From: a virus
Direction: 5' to 3' (one strand)
IMG/VR virus record: IMGVR_UViG_3300046514_000096
Span: 1-24,823 of that record
Length of the DNA stretch: 24,823 nt
In this document: piece by piece, positions 2,657 through 23,693 of the stretch
Position numbering within the stretch: position 1 is the stretch's first letter
How the letters are laid out: every line of letters starts with the position of its first letter
The notes under the pieces: generated by a model
The model's database searches: none
What the model saw: only the letters and a program-made list of their open reading frames with translations
What the model was told of the DNA's origin: nothing
Translations under genes and position numbers: made by a program

Positions 2657-3157
2657 TTAAGCAGCTATTCGATTATAAGATTTACCCTTCACGCTCACAC
2701 TACCGTGCGAACTCCGTATCTCATCCATACTAAACTTACCTCTACCCTTGCTCTTGCACCCTTCAGGCTTCCACATCCACATAAGCTTCTTCGGTGCCCA
2801 TCTATACCCTGATTCTTTCAATACTTCCTTGTGTGGCTTAGTATCTCCACTTACCCATATCCACGTACCACATACTTCAATTGTCAATCCCAAGTGAATT
2901 ATCGCATTCAGTGCTGCGTTTATCTCATCACCCAGATTTAACTCTTCTTCCATCTCTACATTAATCTCATCACTCGCAACGTAGTCCTGCAAGCTCATCC
3001 ACGCTGCGTTAACTAATTTCATCATCTCTAATCCCGCTGGATTCCGGTCAGGATGATATTTACTGCTTGCTCTCCTGTACGCTGCCTTAATCTCTTCAAA
3101 GCTCGCACTTCTTCCCAACTCCAACACGCCTAACGCTTCGTTATGTCTCATTTTCAT
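2657..3157 (-). CDS. J-domain (DnaJ-like) phage protein, 166 aa
   Basis: The N-terminal ~60 residues form a J-domain: helix II (SFEEIKAAYRRASSKY) leads into the HPD signature at residues 35-37, followed by RNPAG and helix III (MMKLVNAAW). J-domains stimulate the ATPase of Hsp70/DnaK, so the protein probably recruits host DnaK to a client. Instead of the Gly/Phe and zinc regions of true DnaJ, residues about 83-140 form a second, aromatic-rich domain (CGTWIWVSGDTKPH, then GYRWAPKKLMWMWKPEG). I have the impression this domain accompanies J-domains in other phage and plasmid proteins, but its role is unknown to me. ATG 3157 was chosen over GTG 3166 because GGGAG lies 8 bases upstream. The gene looks less AT-rich than the genes that follow it, by eye, which could mean separate acquisition. 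Confidence 0.85.
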   Translation of the reverse strand: MKMRHNEALGVLELGRSASFEEIKAAYRRASSKYHPDRNPAGLEMMKLVNAAWMSLQDYVASDEINVEMEEELNLGDEINAALNAIIHLGLTIEVCGTWIWVSGDTKPHKEVLKESGYRWAPKKLMWMWKPEGCKSKGRGKFSMDEIRSSHGSVSVKGKSYNRIAA

Positions 3158-3505: not shown

Positions 3506-3541
3506 GGGGGGTATAAACCGGGGACAGGGGGGTGAGTTGGG
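3506..3541 (+). other. Cluster of four G-runs (possible G-quadruplex)
   Basis: Runs of 6, 4, 6 and 3 G lie at 3506-3511, 3520-3523, 3527-3532 and 3539-3541, with loops of 8, 3 and 6 bases. This is close to the usual quadruplex rule but with one loop a base too long. It stands out in otherwise AT-rich DNA. The minus-strand transcript would carry the C-runs, so any quadruplex would form in DNA, on the plus strand. Confidence 0.45.
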
Positions 3542-3565
3542 ATTCCGGTGCCCCGCAACTCTCCC
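3530..3565 (-). other. Strong hairpin downstream of the large terminase
   Basis: GGG (3530-3532) pairs with CCC (3563-3565); after a T.T mismatch, GAGTTG (3534-3539) pairs with CAACTC (3556-3561); after a one-base bulge, GG (3540-3541) pairs with CC (3553-3554), closing an 11-base loop. That is 11 base pairs in all, mostly GC. No T-run follows on the minus strand, so it is not a standard intrinsic terminator. It could slow or protect late transcripts, or be part of a packaging site. Confidence 0.5.
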
Positions 3566-3703
3566 ATGCATCCTGACAGCTCGAAGTGAGGCTAATTGCG
3601 TATAAAATTCAAGAACGTCTGCCAACGTGCATGTGCCGTCGTTCGTAATCTTCCTATTATTAGACGGATTTTGTTGTGAGGTTATTATTGCTTGCGGGAA
3701 TAG

Positions 3704-3747: not shown

Positions 3748-5004
3748 CTACCCAGACGTGTACTTCACCGGGGCCTGCGGAATATCGTATAAGCGTCGAT
3801 AGTTAAGTGCGAGATAACGTACTGCGTCAGCTATATGAGTAGCCCAGTTATCGAGAGGGTGCTTGCTATAGCTTCCTGTTTGCTCTTTGTAAAGTCTCTG
3901 ATATTCTCTTAATGCACGCAGAAGAAGCTGGCAATTAACCTTGTCGATTCTTAGGCGCGGGAACATGTATCGTACTGCTTCGATACCATCTTCGAAGTTA
4001 ACTTTAGGGACTACCTGCAATTGCCATCCATGCTTTCTTGCTTGCATTATTCTTGACTCCGTATGCTCCCAACCTTGGTGCTCTTGCTTCACATCGTGTG
4101 GCATCCAGTGGTGTCCCCACGCGCAACCAATTGAACGTCGTATCATCTCAGCCTGTTCGAGATAGTATTTTAGCCCTTTGCCAGTATCATGTAAGAGATG
4201 CAACAGGTGTACGTATCGCCCAACGATTTGGAAAAGGATACCCGCAGTTGCATCCGTTCCGCCCAGGTCCCATATACTGTGTAGAGGTAGACTAGGATCA
4301 GGCTTAAGCATCATGACTCTGCCTTCACGCTCCATGTCGCTTATTTCTCTAGTATAGTAAGCACCTAAGTTACCTACTTCAAAATCAACGTAGAACTCCT
4401 GTCGAATCATTTCTTCAGACATGCCAAGATCACGTGCACGCCTGATATCATCTTCGGTGATAATGCGAGTACCATCATGCTTAAATGTTTGCTCTACACT
4501 GAGATGTTCAACATGATAGTCAGGTAAATCTTTTACTTGCTGGAATACTTCATACCCGTGATTCATTCCTCTGGGTGTGTACTGCAGGATTTCTTTTCCT
4601 TTGTTCTGTACAAGAATAGGATTGAGATACTGACGAGCAAGGGGATTATGCAAACTAAACTCTGAATAAATAATGGTGACCGGATTCGTTCCCATAAGAC
4701 CATCATAATTATTACTCCCTGCGAGAATAAGTTTTGAACCATTGAACATATCAATTTCCATACGGGCTTCGTTCTTTCGATCAATCAAAGCCTCTGGTAT
4801 AGCCTTCATGAAAGGCTTGCCATCGAAATCCATTCCTTGCCATATTACTTGTCGTGCTTGTTTAAATAACGGAAATAAATATACATGAGTTCCAATTCGT
4901 TTTAATCCACGCAGTGTCCATCCTTCTAGGCAAAATATGTCCTTTCCGGCACGGCGATGCACTACTGCACATATATTTTTATCATCAAGCAATGCTTTAA
5001 ACAT
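3748..5004 (-). CDS. Phage terminase large subunit (ATPase/nuclease)
   Basis: The motor that cuts concatemeric DNA and drives it into the prohead through the portal. Numbering from the ATG at 5004: Walker A variant HRRAGKD at 16-22; Walker B TIIYSEF at 110-116 with catalytic E115; coupling motif YTPRG at 142-146; RNase H-type nuclease motif WDLGGTDATA at 245-254 (D246, D251) and late acidic motif HIADAVRY around 390-397 (D393). Both enzyme domains are therefore intact. The start is a problem: the ATG lies only 15 residues before Walker A, and the same frame upstream reads PYPHQAR, the likely adenine-binding Gln motif. The true N-terminus is probably upstream even though no ATG, GTG or TTG exists there (see 5005-5055). 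The gene ends the late operon. Confidence 0.9.
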   Translation of the reverse strand: MFKALLDDKNICAVVHRRAGKDIFCLEGWTLRGLKRIGTHVYLFPLFKQARQVIWQGMDFDGKPFMKAIPEALIDRKNEARMEIDMFNGSKLILAGSNNYDGLMGTNPVTIIYSEFSLHNPLARQYLNPILVQNKGKEILQYTPRGMNHGYEVFQQVKDLPDYHVEHLSVEQTFKHDGTRIITEDDIRRARDLGMSEEMIRQEFYVDFEVGNLGAYYTREISDMEREGRVMMLKPDPSLPLHSIWDLGGTDATAGILFQIVGRYVHLLHLLHDTGKGLKYYLEQAEMIRRSIGCAWGHHWMPHDVKQEHQGWEHTESRIMQARKHGWQLQVVPKVNFEDGIEAVRYMFPRLRIDKVNCQLLLRALREYQRLYKEQTGSYSKHPLDNWATHIADAVRYLALNYRRLYDIPQAPVKYTSG

Positions 5005-5055
5005 ACGTGCTTGGTGGGGGTACGGATTTATACCAGGTATTTTTATATAGATAAA
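5005..5055 (-). other. In-frame N-terminal extension of terminase with no standard start codon
   Basis: Seventeen codons upstream of the terminase ATG, in the same frame, read FIYIKIPGINPYPHQAR. The PxPHQ part resembles the N-terminus of phage large terminases, where the Gln contacts the adenine of ATP. The preceding codon is the TAA (5058-5056) of the 54-aa gene. The codons contain ATC (5052) and ATA (5046, 5040, 5031) but no ATG, GTG, TTG or CTG. GGAAG lies 7 bases before the ATC. A separate ATG at 5066, in the neighbouring frame, opens a 7-codon frame (MEDNLSI) that ends at 5045-5043 and would join the terminase after a -1 shift. Confidence 0.6.
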
Positions 5056-5220
5056 TTATCTTCCATACTTCTTTTTCTCATGCTCTTCACGTTCTTTTGC
5101 TGCATGCCGTTGAACCGAGTATGCAGCAGCAATTGCTTGATCCCTTGGGTGTCCGGATTTTATCATCTCACCAATATTCTCTGATCTTGCCTTATCGCTA
5201 CTACTCTTAATCAACGGCAT
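5056..5220 (-). CDS. Small conserved-looking phage protein, 54 aa
   Basis: ATG at 5220-5218 with AGGAG seven bases upstream; stop TAA 5058-5056. The protein begins MPLIKSSSDKARSENIGEM, continues with a HPRDQAIAAAYSVQR-type helix and ends in a charged tail (AKEREEHEKKKYGR). Small proteins with the plan 'MPLIKS...ENI...KPxxQAxAxAxxxxR' are familiar from phages, where they are annotated only as hypothetical; this link is from memory. It sits between the 107-aa coiled-coil gene (14-base gap) and the large terminase, in the same frame as the terminase. Confidence 0.65.
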   Translation of the reverse strand: MPLIKSSSDKARSENIGEMIKSGHPRDQAIAAAYSVQRHAAKEREEHEKKKYGR

Positions 5221-8548: not shown

Positions 8549-11500
8549 TCACTGTTGCTTTGCTTTATGGGCTGCCTGTCTGGTTTTTGGTAGACTAGTA
8601 TTCTCAATCCATTTATTAACTAAGTTACGTGTCTGCCAACTATAAACAATTGGCGTATTAACTGCGATTCGTTTTAAATCAGTTTTGTTCATTTCACGAC
8701 TAGCTATAGCACCAATAATTCTAGTCATATCATTAGCCATTCCACCTACAGGGCCATTCATTACACCCATCTCAGTTCGACCACGATAACGTTCATTTGT
8801 AACAGCTTCCTGTAAGAACCCACTAGATAGGAAATTGGCTTCCTGATATGCATCACCAAGTATGCTAAATACACCGCCATCTCTAACAGCATTCTGGAAC
8901 ATATGATCTTCTTCCTGCATGGGATCCTGACCTGAAGCAAGCCTTCTGAGTGGATTTTGTGTTGCACCAGCTGCCATCATAAGCATTGTACCTATCAGTT
9001 GACGACCTTCTGCCTGTTGCATTAATGGTGCAAGGAAACGAGTCATACTAGCTAATGCATAGCCTTTGAATAGAAAGATGCTACTGAATATAGGATTATC
9101 CATAGCAAATGGTGCATCGAGTAATCCACGTCTTATGACAGTATCTTTGACTGCGCGATGAATAGCCTGAGACATGATATTTGAAGCTTCCTTATCAGCC
9201 CATTCCCAGTAATAACCAATACCAGCACCTTTAAATGGTTTCTCTTTTCTACCATTCAGGAATCGTTGAGCATATTCTTTAGGATCAATTCCATACTTCA
9301 ATAAATCCTTGTGATCCCTTGGCGAAATCTTTCCTTCCATAAAATCTTTCATGGCTTTCATAATCTTTGAATTAATTACAAATGCTGCCCATCGTTCATT
9401 AAAGTTTTCAACATAATTAGCACCTGTAAAGTTACCGCTGTAATGAGCAAGAGTCTCAAGACCTTTTGTTAATTTACCCTGAACAGGTTCATATGTTTGC
9501 GATGTACCAGTCCAGTTCTTATCTGAGTAAGCCATATTGACATGACGCTGAGAGACATATGCATGAGCTGCATTTTCACGTATTGCTTCGCCTTCCTCAG
9601 TATTTAACATTCCACCAAGATTTTTTAACATGGGGTATAAGCCATCTTTAACAGTAGGCCAGAACCCATGCTTAAATACGATAGCCATCGTGTCCGTACT
9701 CATTGTCCAAGGCAAGAATCCTAACTTTGTAATGACAGCATATAGATTGGCCATGCGTGAATATTCGCGTGCCTTTGCTGAATATTTGTTTTTACCTGTC
9801 ATATTAGCAATTGATAACTCAAGATCATTTTTAGCTCTTTTGTATCTACGACCAAGTTTCAATACTTCCTTATCGTATTTCTTTTTTGCTTTCGTTAATT
9901 CTTTTGGATCTGTAATACCTTCAGTAATACTTTTAAGTTTATTTTTTTCTAACTTATGTTCATTTGCAAAACGAGTGATTAACTCGTCGAATGTTCCGTT
10001 AACCGTTAAGCGATTAAGAACCTTTTTAATTGAATTCTTTCTACCAATGAAATTGCGATAATTCATGACATTAATGGATGGATCAGGATGCAACCAGTTA
10101 TTATCATATAACCATTTATCACTTAACATTAATGTACGCTGAGTAAGTGGGTTTTCTTTATTGCTTCCCATAGCCTTATCCATGATGCTAGCAATGTTAT
10201 CTTCTGCAGTTTGATTAAGTATGGAATCATAATAAGCTTTAGCTGCAGTCAATCTATCAGCTAATGAACCTAGTTCATTACCATATTCTTCACGCATCTT
10301 AAGGCGATTATTTGGATCCTTTAATTCATCTTTGCCAGTCTTTGTGTTTCTGTAATATAGTTCTTGTGGAATTTGTTTGTTATACATCTTTTCATAAATA
10401 GCTTGTTGAGCTTCAAGATGTTTGCCTTGTAGTTCATTTAATTTAGCTTCTTCCTGCTCTATTTGCTGTTGAGCTTTATCTTCTAATTCAGCATGTTTCT
10501 GAGCAGTCTCAACTGTTTTTCCTTTATTTGCAGCCTGTTTCTTTCTGCTTTTTTCATTTTTCAATGCAGTGACAATAGCTTGTTGTTCAGCAACTTGCTT
10601 TTCAATATCTTTAACAGGTTTAAGAATGGCATGAATTGCATTAGCTTCATTTGCAGATACTGCATGTCTATCTTCAACAAGAAGATCAAGATCAGGATTA
10701 TCCCGCAGCATATTCTGAACATCATTATTCATTTGTGATAAACGTTCTTTCATTACTTCAATAGCATCAGAGGATTGTTTTACACTGATATCACCAGCAT
10801 AAATTCTGGATCTTAAAGTGTCTAACTCATCCTGTAATGGTTTTAATTCATTATTAATAGCATCAATTTTAGATTGATGTTTTGCTTTTGTTTCAGGTTT
10901 TACAGCTTTCTTGAGTGCTGACTTAGCCACACTCAATTTTTCATTTATTGGCCTAATTTTATCGTTAAGAGAATTCTCATGCTTGATATCTTTTTCTTCA
11001 GGCTTCTTTTGTTCAGCCTGTCTAATTAATTCAGAATGTTGTTCTTCAGATTTCTTAATAAATTCCTGAAGATTTCTAATGGGTTGCATATGCTGATTGA
11101 TTATCTTATCTTGCTCGCCTAATTCACCAGCTACACCATTAACCCATTCATCTTCATTGAGTTCCATCCTGGCTGTATAATATACACGCGAAAGAAATCC
11201 TTTAGCTGTGCGTGGTTTAAGTATTTTGTCCGAGATGCCATTTAACTTAAGATGTTCAAGATAAAGAGGATCCATTGATTCACGAAACATGACAGCAGCT
11301 TCATTCACTGCAGAAATATCACTCGGCTCTTCTGTGATTAATGCATATTGAACTTCACGACCAAATTCATCACGTGTTACACCACCATCTTTAAAATACT
11401 TTGTAGCAATATCTTTCATTCCAGCAAAGTTTTGGCTTCCTGCTTTCTTTGGGTTAAATTCAACTCCATTACGCTTCATGAATAAACCATCATACTGTGT

Positions 11501-12682
11501 TTTCAATGAAGTATTAGATCCACGAATCATACTCATCATGGTTTCAAAAGGCGTTTCGTTCGGATTGCCTTTCTCAAATCCCATCACATCGAATGAATGT
11601 TCAACAAGGTTGTTTGCATATCCACGAATAGTATCAAATGGTGAAGTAAGCATTCTTATTTTAGGACTAATAACACCACCAGTAAATGATCCAGCCTTAC
11701 CTAATACTTTTCCTACCGTTTCACCAACATAAGGAATGGCATGAATGACATTTTTACTTAATGCAGCATCAAGATATGTTTGTGCCATACTAACTTTTGC
11801 AGCACTTGCATCACCAAGATTATGGATGTTATATCCCTTAACAATACCTTTTGCATCTAACTGTGGTCTTATTTCAAGACCCTGATTCGCTAATTTAAGA
11901 ATATTACGTGCACTATATAATTTAGTAGCTTCAGACGCATACTGGATACCAAGATGTGCGCCCATGAATGCAGTACCCATTAATGTATCTACTGCGGTGC
12001 TAATGGCCCAGTCATATAAATTACCACCAGTTTTTGTAGTTTCAAGAACAGCTTCATGAGATGCGCTTGAGATACCTACACCAGCAACCATCTTTGGAAG
12101 ATTCTGAAGTAATGCCTGAGATACTTTCGCATACTTTAAACCAGTCGCTACTGGAAATAATGATGATGGACTTAAAGCAAATCCAGCACCCCCACCAAGC
12201 AACTGCGCAATCATGCTGCCATTATTAATACGTTCATTATATTCCTGTTGATCGAGAACATAATTGTAACGTCTACGCTGATCCTTTGGGCCAGTAGCAT
12301 CAAGTATGTATTGCATGTTACGTTCGTCTACGCCGATATAAACTGATTTATCATCAGTAGCAGACCAGTTAGGTGGAACAAAATCATCGAGCGGAGAATC
12401 ATCCTGAACCTTTCTGGAAGCAGCTTCACCGACCTGAATAATTTCTTCCTGTTCAGCAAACTTACCGCCTAATGTTCTAAAAAATCCTGCGCCTTCATGT
12501 GATTTTTCAGGCATGGCTTCAGGTGGTTTTTCCTGAAATACACTATGCAATTCCTGATCGAATTTAACATCAACTGGAATAGGTGTTGATCCATCACCTT
12601 GTAATGCAGCATTCAGTGAATTTTTCTGACTTTGTTTTGGTGCAATTTCCTGACCGTTAAATTCATTGATAATAGGATCCAT
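8549..12682 (-). CDS. Large internal virion (DNA ejection) protein, 1377 aa
   Basis: Very long protein next to the fibre gene, where T7 places gp16. The ATG at 12682 was chosen over GTG 12691; GGTGG lies 5 bases upstream and the gene starts 2 bases after the upstream stop. Residues 1-150 are polar. About 155-250 is Gly/Ala-rich and hydrophobic (MIAQLLGGGAGFALSP, AISTAVDTLMGTAFMGAHLG), suiting insertion into the cell envelope. About 530-780 is a highly charged coiled coil (repeated Glu, Gln and Lys). The last ~450 residues are mixed helical with hydrophobic stretches. I see no lytic transglycosylase motif, unlike T7 gp16. It probably forms part of the trans-envelope ejection channel; the assignment rests on position, size and composition. 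Confidence 0.72.
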   Translation of the reverse strand: MDPIINEFNGQEIAPKQSQKNSLNAALQGDGSTPIPVDVKFDQELHSVFQEKPPEAMPEKSHEGAGFFRTLGGKFAEQEEIIQVGEAASRKVQDDSPLDDFVPPNWSATDDKSVYIGVDERNMQYILDATGPKDQRRRYNYVLDQQEYNERINNGSMIAQLLGGGAGFALSPSSLFPVATGLKYAKVSQALLQNLPKMVAGVGISSASHEAVLETTKTGGNLYDWAISTAVDTLMGTAFMGAHLGIQYASEATKLYSARNILKLANQGLEIRPQLDAKGIVKGYNIHNLGDASAAKVSMAQTYLDAALSKNVIHAIPYVGETVGKVLGKAGSFTGGVISPKIRMLTSPFDTIRGYANNLVEHSFDVMGFEKGNPNETPFETMMSMIRGSNTSLKTQYDGLFMKRNGVEFNPKKAGSQNFAGMKDIATKYFKDGGVTRDEFGREVQYALITEEPSDISAVNEAAVMFRESMDPLYLEHLKLNGISDKILKPRTAKGFLSRVYYTARMELNEDEWVNGVAGELGEQDKIINQHMQPIRNLQEFIKKSEEQHSELIRQAEQKKPEEKDIKHENSLNDKIRPINEKLSVAKSALKKAVKPETKAKHQSKIDAINNELKPLQDELDTLRSRIYAGDISVKQSSDAIEVMKERLSQMNNDVQNMLRDNPDLDLLVEDRHAVSANEANAIHAILKPVKDIEKQVAEQQAIVTALKNEKSRKKQAANKGKTVETAQKHAELEDKAQQQIEQEEAKLNELQGKHLEAQQAIYEKMYNKQIPQELYYRNTKTGKDELKDPNNRLKMREEYGNELGSLADRLTAAKAYYDSILNQTAEDNIASIMDKAMGSNKENPLTQRTLMLSDKWLYDNNWLHPDPSINVMNYRNFIGRKNSIKKVLNRLTVNGTFDELITRFANEHKLEKNKLKSITEGITDPKELTKAKKKYDKEVLKLGRRYKRAKNDLELSIANMTGKNKYSAKAREYSRMANLYAVITKLGFLPWTMSTDTMAIVFKHGFWPTVKDGLYPMLKNLGGMLNTEEGEAIRENAAHAYVSQRHVNMAYSDKNWTGTSQTYEPVQGKLTKGLETLAHYSGNFTGANYVENFNERWAAFVINSKIMKAMKDFMEGKISPRDHKDLLKYGIDPKEYAQRFLNGRKEKPFKGAGIGYYWEWADKEASNIMSQAIHRAVKDTVIRRGLLDAPFAMDNPIFSSIFLFKGYALASMTRFLAPLMQQAEGRQLIGTMLMMAAGATQNPLRRLASGQDPMQEEDHMFQNAVRDGGVFSILGDAYQEANFLSSGFLQEAVTNERYRGRTEMGVMNGPVGGMANDMTRIIGAIASREMNKTDLKRIAVNTPIVYSWQTRNLVNKWIENTSLPKTRQAAHKAKQQ

Positions 12683-18107: not shown

Positions 18108-18713
18108 TTAACCTATTTGTGGCCCAATTATACCAGTAATATTCCTGTTCGCTAAAACTGGCATGATTACTGGACTTAGCTGAGGACGATTCTGTGCATC
18201 TGTCGCTGCAGCAATAGCCAGTTGAGTAATTCTCTTTTGTTCCAGTGCACCGTAGTAATCAGGTTTCTGTGCGCTTGAGAGTGCTACAAATGCTGCAATC
18301 TCATAGATAAAGTAATTCACGAATACCATAGGCAACAAACTTACATCGGGGAGAAAAGCATACTCCATAAACATCGGAGATTGAGTTCCCCAATTACAGT
18401 AAATCAGATTGCTGTTATATATTTCGTAAACATAATTTTGCGGGATTATCCTGATATTCTTAAGATAACCAGAAGGTAATAAATAAATATTCTGCCACCC
18501 TGTGTTTGGATCTGGAATCATGGGTGACAGACTTAGTTGTGAGATCGTTATGGCAAAACGCCAATTACCAGTACCGAGCACACTAGGCAATAACATGTCA
18601 TATGCCTGATCTGCAGCGATAACCAAATCATCAGCGTTATCCAAAGTCTGGATGGGAGCATGACCAAGCAACATAACTGCGAGACTCACAATTTTGGTCT
18701 TGGTCAAGGCCAT
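18108..18713 (-). CDS. Head-to-tail adaptor (tail tubular protein A type), 201 aa
   Basis: Helical protein with the features of T7 gp11-like adaptors: an N-terminal SLAVMLLGHAPIQTL helix and loop, YDMLLPSVLGTGNWRFA around residues 38-54, then LLPSGYL (about 78-84) and a helical C-terminus. Such proteins form a 12-fold ring that joins the portal to the nozzle. Length is as usual for the family. GGAG lies 8 bases before the ATG. The gene sits immediately before the nozzle gene, which strongly supports the call. Confidence 0.87.
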   Translation of the reverse strand: MALTKTKIVSLAVMLLGHAPIQTLDNADDLVIAADQAYDMLLPSVLGTGNWRFAITISQLSLSPMIPDPNTGWQNIYLLPSGYLKNIRIIPQNYVYEIYNSNLIYCNWGTQSPMFMEYAFLPDVSLLPMVFVNYFIYEIAAFVALSSAQKPDYYGALEQKRITQLAIAAATDAQNRPQLSPVIMPVLANRNITGIIGPQIG

Positions 18714-21615: not shown

Positions 21616-23259
21616 TTATTGACCTGTTGTGACGATTGGGTTAGCCGGATTTTGTGGTTGTTCTGGCATCATACCGGATGAATTAGCCAGTTGTTGCATA
21701 TTGTGCTGGTTCTGTACGTTCTGCATTGTCTGTGCCACTGCATTAGGATCATTGAGATATCTCGCATCAATCTGCAATGAATCAGCCAGTAGATAAGGCG
21801 TTGTTGCCGGATTGATATAAACCTGCGTTGCTTCTGGCCCCATGATTCCCTGCATGGTTTGAACGAACTGGATAAACCTTGCCATGTCCTGCTGTCCTTT
21901 AACCAGTGCAAGAGGTGATTTATATCTGAAGCGAATAGGAACACCATCCATTACAGGTATGGGTAAAATACCCATTTTGTGGGCAATATAGGCAAAACGA
22001 TAGAAGATAGGTTCAAGACATTCTTGCTGCAGTCTTGAAAATAACGGGCCAATCTTCTGGGCAAGGTTTTGTTGTTTCAGTGATAACTCATATGCAGTCT
22101 GTGGTTGTATACCACGTGCATCCTGTGGTTCTTCTGCAAACAATAATGCCTTAATCTGCATTCTCAAATCAGCAATAGTAAACTGAGCAAAGTTGGGATC
22201 TGCACTGACAGGTAAAGGTATAAGTGGGACTTGCCCGCCAGTTCCAATCGGTGCAATAGGTATGATAGTGAAAGGTTCAAGCTTAAAAGTATGAGGATTA
22301 AATACCGCATCTGAGAATCCCATGTATGGACGGAAAGTATTTAAGTTAGCTGAGGCTAATTCGATACGCGCCATCTCATTCAGCGAGATGATGGAAGGCA
22401 ATGCTTCCATGACAGGGCCACGGCCCCACGTCTCATTATTCGTTTTCTGGAATCGCCAGATAATACCAGGATTAGATTCAAGCCATTCCGAATAAAGAAT
22501 TCCTTCACCTGCCCACACAGCATAAAGATAATTCTTTGGTTCATTCGGAAAGTACGAAACACCTTCATATACATTCTTTACCTTGGCATCAAAGTCACTC
22601 ATGAGATCAGCGACAAGATCAGGCGTAAGAACGATTTTAGGCCAGCGTGTATTTAGCTCTGATATCTTCAGGTTCTGCCATGTTCTATACCAACTCTCTA
22701 CCTTACCGTTTACAGCTTCCTCAATTGCAAGCTTATCCATTGGAATGGATGTACAAAGGAAAGGTTGGTCATCACGATACTGGTTAATCACAAGTGCTGA
22801 AGTGCCTACGCACAAGTCGTAATAGCATTCATTAATTACAACATCAAAGTTTGAACCATGAATGAGACTAAAGAGATGACGGGTATATTTGTTTAATACT
22901 AACTGGGCATTCTGCAGTGTTTTAACATCACGATCAGCATCATCAACCATTGCATCATCTACTTCGAGAAATCCCCATTGTGTTTGTGGGGGTGTCATTG
23001 TCTCGTGAAGTTTGGATACGAAGGTCTTAACACCTTCCACTGCAGTTGTATCATATACGCGCGTGTTCTGTGCCGTTCCCTGAAATTCCTTACCGGGTAA
23101 ATAGTATCGGTTACGGAATGGAATGGCATAAAAAAAGGATGCCTGCATAATAGGAATCCAAAGGTCAGCCACGTACTTTGCAGCGTTGTAACGCTTGCGC
23201 AGAACTTCGAGTAAATTATTCGGTGTTCCTAACGTGCCTTGACCTTGATCTGTATCCAT
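21616..23259 (-). CDS. Portal (head-to-tail connector) protein, 547 aa
   Basis: The 12-fold ring through which DNA enters and leaves the head and on which the terminase docks. Sequence support: an N-terminal helix with LRKRYNAAKYVADLW, the PFRNRYYLPG loop (about 47-56), then VYDTTAVEGVKTFVSKL and LTPP-like TMTPPQTQWGFLEV (about 68-100), which is the hallmark of T7-like head-to-tail connectors. Length is typical (about 510-550). The C-terminal ~50 residues are Gln/Asn/Met-rich and probably disordered or part of the barrel. The start overlaps the upstream stop (TAATG). The position ahead of scaffold and capsid genes is as expected. Confidence 0.92.
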   Translation of the reverse strand: MDTDQGQGTLGTPNNLLEVLRKRYNAAKYVADLWIPIMQASFFYAIPFRNRYYLPGKEFQGTAQNTRVYDTTAVEGVKTFVSKLHETMTPPQTQWGFLEVDDAMVDDADRDVKTLQNAQLVLNKYTRHLFSLIHGSNFDVVINECYYDLCVGTSALVINQYRDDQPFLCTSIPMDKLAIEEAVNGKVESWYRTWQNLKISELNTRWPKIVLTPDLVADLMSDFDAKVKNVYEGVSYFPNEPKNYLYAVWAGEGILYSEWLESNPGIIWRFQKTNNETWGRGPVMEALPSIISLNEMARIELASANLNTFRPYMGFSDAVFNPHTFKLEPFTIIPIAPIGTGGQVPLIPLPVSADPNFAQFTIADLRMQIKALLFAEEPQDARGIQPQTAYELSLKQQNLAQKIGPLFSRLQQECLEPIFYRFAYIAHKMGILPIPVMDGVPIRFRYKSPLALVKGQQDMARFIQFVQTMQGIMGPEATQVYINPATTPYLLADSLQIDARYLNDPNAVAQTMQNVQNQHNMQQLANSSGMMPEQPQNPANPIVTTGQ

Positions 23260-23693
23260 TATGCAGTACCTAATTTAGAGGGAAGGGCTGATCCACTACC
23301 AAGTTTGTTACTGGAATCAGACTGGCTACTCATTAATCCACCGCGACCGCTACGATTTCTTAAGCCACGAATCTGCTTTTCTTCGATACGTCTGCGTTCA
23401 GTCTCTCTTTGCTTTCTGGCTTCTTCAATGCCTTGCCTTGTCAGATCGGTTGCATCTTTGTATGCCTGAATCTGTGCATTAGCTAACGCTGCAGCATCAC
23501 GTTTATCTGATGCAGTTGGTGTACCGGTTACTGCGTGATAGGCATCGGATACCGTACCAAATGGATCAGTGGTTTTACTAAAGAAGTCACCTATTGCACC
23601 TCCAACTCCACGATCAGATTTACCGCTTAAGCCATGACCTGTTCTTGCTTGCGAACTAATTCCCATTCCTTGTACATCAATAAACTTTGGCAT
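23259..23693 (-). CDS. Hypothetical protein upstream of portal, 144 aa
   Basis: Begins MPKFIDVQGMGISSQART. The N-terminal half is Gly-rich (GHGLSGKSDRGVGGAIGDFF); residues about 70-112 form a very charged helix (QAYKDATDLTRQGIEEARKQ then RETERRRIEEKQ); the tail is IRGLRNRSGRGGLMSS. Phage genes beside portal often encode small proteins ending in an LRxRxxxGGL tail of unknown role, and this looks like one of those. AGGAGAA precedes the ATG. A head-assembly role is inferred from position only. Confidence 0.65.
   Translation of the reverse strand: MPKFIDVQGMGISSQARTGHGLSGKSDRGVGGAIGDFFSKTTDPFGTVSDAYHAVTGTPTASDKRDAAALANAQIQAYKDATDLTRQGIEEARKQRETERRRIEEKQIRGLRNRSGRGGLMSSQSDSSNKLGSGSALPSKLGTA

Follow-up and report, generated by a model that had tools for sequence, protein, structure and literature searches.

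Where does translation of a large terminase subunit (TerL) begin when no standard start codon lies ahead of its conserved N-terminus? The question is raised by a virus record of 24,823 bases, hereafter the window, in which the TerL gene lies on the minus strand with its stop at 3748. On that strand the TerL frame reads TAA(5058-5056) TTT ATC TAT ATA AAA ATA CCT GGT ATA AAT CCG TAC CCC CAC CAA GCA CGT ATG(5004-5002). Between the TAA and the first in-frame ATG there are 17 sense codons, none of which is ATG, GTG, TTG or CTG, as a preliminary description of this DNA had stated and as a rereading of the sequence agreed. The TAA is the stop codon of an upstream gene of 54 aa (5056-5220, minus strand), which appears in the open reading frame list, matches phrog_2423 (E = 3.9e-18) and is in the same frame as TerL. 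We conclude that TerL translation very probably starts at the AUC at 5052-5050, 3 nt downstream of this stop, giving a gene of 434 codons plus stop (3748-5052, minus strand).

Identity of the protein as a large terminase

The gene was assigned by PHROG profile, by Foldseek and by its IMG/VR homologues, which are up to 83% identical to it. The profile match was to phrog_2, terminase large subunit (E = 1.4e-21). By tblastn the protein matched annotated TerLs, that of Alteromonas phage ZP6 at 35.8% identity, and the closest TerL of a cultured phage lay at ~36% identity. A Pfam search returned no family at E 0.001, and a PDB sequence search with a 16-sequence alignment returned nothing at E 0.01; the link to the PDB therefore comes from the fold search, in which the best Foldseek matches of a low-confidence model (mean pLDDT 65) were D6E TerL (E = 1.6e-12) and T4 gp17. 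Phages D6E, ZP6 and their relatives carry TerLs of the same protein family as the window; unlike the window, ZP6 and the distant relatives that were inspected have an ATG, GTG or TTG available 5′ of the conserved N-terminus.

Invariant residues in the 16-sequence alignment were Q14, H32, R33, R34, G36, K37, D38, D262, D320 and D409. From knowledge of the family we take Q14 to represent the Q motif, HRRAGKD the basic Walker A motif and the acidic residues the C-terminal nuclease; read in this way from the sequence, the TerL motif set is present. The Gln14 codon (CAA, 5011-5013, minus strand) thus encodes the probable adenine-contacting residue, which lies inside a predicted helix spanning residues 12-22 (local pLDDT about 83-89).

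A separate observation concerns locus L003, where TerL has an extra in-frame TAA between its ATPase and nuclease parts (about 3617-3621; RQEFY*VDFEVGN), as it also has in L005, L022, L032 and L160. Records from two metagenomes (3300045391 and 3300033412) agree exactly on this TAA, and no other in-frame stop of this kind was found among the tested genes of the L003 contig.

Codon usage at the start position

IMG/VR searches yielded 51 distinct TerL loci, the window included, after near-identical loci had been merged (97% over the start region). The conserved TerL N-terminus reads IYIKIPxINPYPHQxRMF, and its codon 1 is ATG in 18 loci, ATT in 16, ATC in 9, GTG in 7 and TTG in one, with no other codon found. 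The ATC of the window (5050-5052, minus strand) thus shares an alignment column with the ATG, GTG, TTG, ATT and ATC codons of 50 other loci. The comparison proposed in the preliminary description, a search of homologous loci for an ATG at this point, accordingly found ATG, GTG or TTG there in sister loci. For example, locus L001/L013 reads ATG TAT ATA AAA ATC CCA against ATC TAT ATA AAA ATA CCT in the window, and this locus and L020 have ATG TAT followed by ATA or ATT where the window has ATC TAT ATA.

Internal hydrophobic positions of the same protein do not behave in this way. Columns 3 and 5, in which ATA, TTA, GTT, CTG and other codons are in use, fall within the set of five codons in only 27/51 and 25/51 loci (Fisher P = 3e-9 and 4e-10 versus column 1). 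Every Val codon in column 1 is GTG (7/7; P = 1.6e-6 given the Val codon usage of the family itself). ATA is absent from the Ile codons of column 1 (0/25; P = 0.0016), while it makes up 165 of the 726 Ile codons in those genes. A column confined to ATG, ATT, ATC, GTG and TTG therefore carries the signature of a start codon. The ATA at 5046, which had also been put forward as a start, was rejected: its column holds ordinary Ile, Leu and Val codons (ATT 19, ATA 16, ATC 8, TTA 4 and others) and varies like any ordinary Ile position.

Onset of conservation and signals for initiation

The onset of conservation falls exactly at the AUC. In the 21 AUU/AUC loci of the same layout, amino acid identity in the TerL frame stayed between 0.06 and 0.27 at every one of the 12 codons upstream, and nothing 5′ of codon 1 was conserved in this frame. 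Identity was 1.00 at codons 1, 2, 6, 10, 11, 14 and 16, with third positions free to vary. Across these 21 loci, pN/pS was 1.00 upstream, 0.22 in codons 2-16 and 0.25 in codons 17-56. The jump in identity together with the low pN/pS in codons 2-16 therefore shows that the TerL N-terminus is translated. Since purifying selection acts strongly on the N-terminal stretch as soon as codon 1 is reached, the lack of a standard start is biological and not a product of chance.

Pairing with the 3′ end of the 16S rRNA points to the same codon. The mean energy of the anti-Shine-Dalgarno (anti-SD) duplex was -4.95 kcal/mol at AUU/AUC starts versus -1.56 kcal/mol at random TerL positions (P = 5e-11). The SD-like element of the window, GGAAGA (5059-5064, minus strand, 6-7 nt 5′ of the AUC), is among the weaker ones at -3.3 kcal/mol, and most sister AUU/AUC loci have a stronger one. 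SDs were somewhat stronger in AUU/AUC loci than in NTG loci (P = 0.007, a value that ignores kinship among loci). In many NTG loci the start overlaps the upstream stop (TAATG, TAGTG); in AUU/AUC loci the upstream stop lies mostly 1-16 nt 5′ of the start. Translational coupling to the upstream gene is plausible in both groups, and in the window because the TAA of the 54-aa gene is so close to the AUC. Initiation at the ATC at 5052, one of several options in the preliminary description, is therefore strongly supported by the codon column, the onset of conservation and the ribosome-binding signal.

Alternative explanations for the missing start

Translation might instead begin at Met17 (5002-5004, minus strand), the sole standard in-frame start in the window, producing a TerL of 418 aa that is shorter by the N-terminal 16 residues. 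Met is common at this position, being found in 20/21 AUU/AUC loci and 11/13 NTG loci of the same layout, yet we consider such a start highly improbable. It would leave the strong purifying selection on codons 2-16 outside the gene, and ribosome-binding pairing is absent 5′ of Met17 (mean -0.18 kcal/mol). In NTG relatives the start lies 16 codons before this position. Met17 itself is not invariant: L001/L013, with ATG at codon 1, has Ile there, and L163, with ATC at codon 1, has Cys. A start here would also cut inside the predicted helix and, as had been pointed out before, cost the protein its Gln motif, of which Gln14 is invariant in the family alignment. Met17 is best read as an internal methionine.

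Less probable again is a programmed -1 frameshift that would carry ribosomes from an out-of-frame ATG (5064-5066, minus strand) into the TerL frame. This ATG does open a seven-codon frame (MEDNLSI*) whose first 11 bases are shared with the 54-aa gene, exactly as described earlier, and the overlap is found in the window and in its relative L002/L012/L150. However, this relative is nearly identical to the window over the junction, and the MEDNLSI frame is absent elsewhere. Seven of the 25 AUU/AUC loci have no NTG in any frame within 30 nt upstream, and the others have one at scattered distances. No slippery heptamer of the form X XXY YYZ exists in ATG GAA GAT AAT TTA TCT ATA TAA, which runs from the ATG at 5066 to the TAA at 5045-5043. 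With neither a conserved frame nor a slippery site, the frameshift option fails, and the ATG is apparently a chance feature.

Readthrough of the TAA at 5058-5056, which would fuse the 54-aa protein to TerL, is scarcely credible. The upstream gene is in the TerL frame in the window and in seven other AUU/AUC loci, but 8/24 is the chance level, the gene being out of frame in the other 16; moreover, the upstream genes differ between loci and the interval from their stop to codon 1 is unconserved. The length of 489 residues given for the fusion holds if the stop is not decoded, and becomes 490 (54+1+17+418) if it is. No more credible is a sequencing or assembly error that destroyed a normal start, such as the one-base error suggested earlier: a single metagenomic contig alone cannot exclude it, but the comparative set refutes it, the arrangement being common to 25 distinct loci with AUU/AUC, drawn from some 20 metagenomes, with downstream frames intact in nearly all.

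Distribution of the AUU/AUC start among genes

Next, we asked whether the AUU/AUC start is confined to TerL. The proteins of the window served as queries for homologues in 21 sister contigs, and the start of each homologue was read; a few homologues are counted twice because some segments overlap. AUU/AUC was found at TerL in 18/22 homologues and in other genes in 2 of roughly 290. Among the genes tested in the sister genomes, this start is nearly exclusive to TerL. Four exceptions outside TerL were flagged. In two of them (L273 and L270) the NTG candidates lie farther upstream than the limit set for this comparison, and the other two are a tail gene (phrog_394) with a true AUC, an ATC at the aligned first residue in G015 and G017 (2/24) behind an SD of TAGGAG or GAGGA. 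Since an AUC lies behind an SD in the tail gene as well, AUC initiation recurs. The tail protein, a homologue of window 18108-18713, has ATC in place of its relatives' ATG, with an SD upstream, on the minus strands of L258 and L262 (starts at 3059 and 4557 on the reverse-complemented sequences), and is thus a second gene with the AUC trait.

Two broader causes were rejected. Genome-wide relaxed initiation does not fit the remaining conserved genes in sister contigs, where an NTG lies near the expected start. A phage-encoded initiator tRNA was not found: the window has no tRNA and the sister contigs, which may be incomplete, have only a tRNA-Gln. This tRNA-Gln (anticodon TTG) lies at 103-173 of L237.

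Evolution of the start codon

A TerL tree was built with IQ-TREE from 50 rows, with codon 1 left out. Parsimony placed nine interchanges between AUU/AUC and NTG on this tree, and at least five are forced by well-supported branches. The supported clade of the window (25 rows) comprises 21 AUU/AUC and 4 NTG loci. Distant TerL relatives that were inspected (28-39% identity) have an NTG 5′ of the motif in nearly all cases; expansion of the search from L063 reached mostly a distant family (28-30%), whose inspected members likewise have one. The tree thus indicates that AUU/AUC is the normal TerL start in the lineage of uncultivated short-tailed phages to which the window belongs, with repeated switching with AUG, GUG and UUG. 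A search for hosts in genome contigs found no host and only relatives at 29-37%, in MAGs.

Architecture of the sister contigs

Most sister contigs (G002-G026, corresponding to L236-L275) carry inverted repeats of 69-234 bp at their ends, perfect or nearly so. Examples are 1-127 versus 23388-23514 in G009, 1-70 versus 21879-21948 and 23002-23071 versus 35271-35340 in G012, and 11360-11898 in G018. The longer contigs look as if they consist of two unique segments, a structural one of about 22 kb ending at TerL and a replication one of about 10-13 kb, parted by inverted repeat copies of 0.5-1.2 kb. This would be a chloroplast-like quadripartite map; repeat lengths of 127, however, are typical of assembler overlaps. 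The replication segment occurs in both orientations relative to TerL, one in the window and G012, the other in G005, G007 and G018. Downstream of TerL, positions 3512-3563 of the window are 80-87% identical to the core of the inverted repeat, or to a matching region, in G003, G011, G012, G018 and G021; this stretch is a candidate packaging or recombination site.

Proposed mechanism and role

Herein, we propose how the AUC start may operate. The initiator fMet-tRNA would pair imperfectly, with a third-base mismatch, with the Ile codon AUC at 5052-5050. Two things would help: a ribosome-binding site within the last part of the upstream gene, and the termination of that gene's translation at a distance of 3 nt. 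The first residue of TerL would be fMet, and the expected N-terminal peptide would be M-YIKIPGINPYPHQAR or YIKIPGINPYPHQAR. Host IF3 would disfavour the AUC, as established work on infC and sigR leads us to infer, and TerL would be made at a low level, which may be what selection keeps. A low level is reasonable because a motor needs no more than a few copies of TerL and because TerL in excess brings with it ATPase and nuclease activity. On this analysis, we lean towards selection of the AUU/AUC start for low TerL dosage.

The start could also be real but neutral, good enough in its host owing to the SD, to coupling or to unusual initiation in the host, and have no part in determining how much TerL is made. 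Several switches back and forth on the TerL tree and the AUC of the tail gene in two genomes are in keeping with neutrality. However, drift in a permissive host should hit many genes, and the start is instead concentrated in TerL, which makes neutrality unlikely, if a serious contender. Less likely still is a switch of timing and dosage, in which an IF3-sensitive start would hold TerL synthesis close to zero for most of the infection. Release would come with a late change in the infected cell, such as an altered ratio of IF3 to ribosomes or the translation of the upstream gene. If such a switch exists, the phage would use host start-codon proofreading to control genome packaging.

Comparison with known systems

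Bacteria are known to use non-NTG start codons in a handful of genes, a few of which have AUU or AUC. The infC gene starts with ATT in E. coli and with ATC in Streptomyces, and sigR of Streptomyces starts with GTC, for which repression by IF3 was shown (PMC5472188). In S. aureus, AUU and AUA starts with an extended SD gave about 10% of the expression from AUG, in poor medium (PMC13009471). The TerL of the window resembles infC in that AUU/AUC is kept across a lineage, at a position fixed by homology and led by an SD; the SD is properly spaced in the group and weak in the window itself. It differs in that infC is a cellular gene whose product, IF3, rejects the codon and so regulates itself, whereas TerL is an enzyme that packages phage DNA and has no such way of controlling its own synthesis (PMC5472188). 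In pcnB of E. coli (AUU) and in cvfC1 (AUU) and ccpN (AUA) of S. aureus, the non-canonical start lowers the amount of product (PMC13009471); these are bacterial chromosomal genes in which initiation was measured, whereas the TerL start is deduced from sequence. Like TerL, sigR has a non-canonical start in a coupled gene pair, where it sets stoichiometry (PMC5472188), but its codon is GTC and not AUU/AUC, and it encodes a transcription regulator and is not a phage gene.

In the open-access papers that we searched, no phage TerL is described as starting at AUU or AUC. As far as we found, a conserved AUU/AUC start on a phage packaging gene, concentrated there and switching with NTG, is undescribed. 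Gene callers limited to ATG, GTG and TTG would truncate this terminase and drop its Q motif, and such mis-annotation matters since terminase is much used in phage classification. With AUU/AUC retained by a whole lineage on this one essential gene, the natural AUG, GUG and UUG versions at the same TerL codon are a ready-made comparative system for finding out what purpose weak starts serve.
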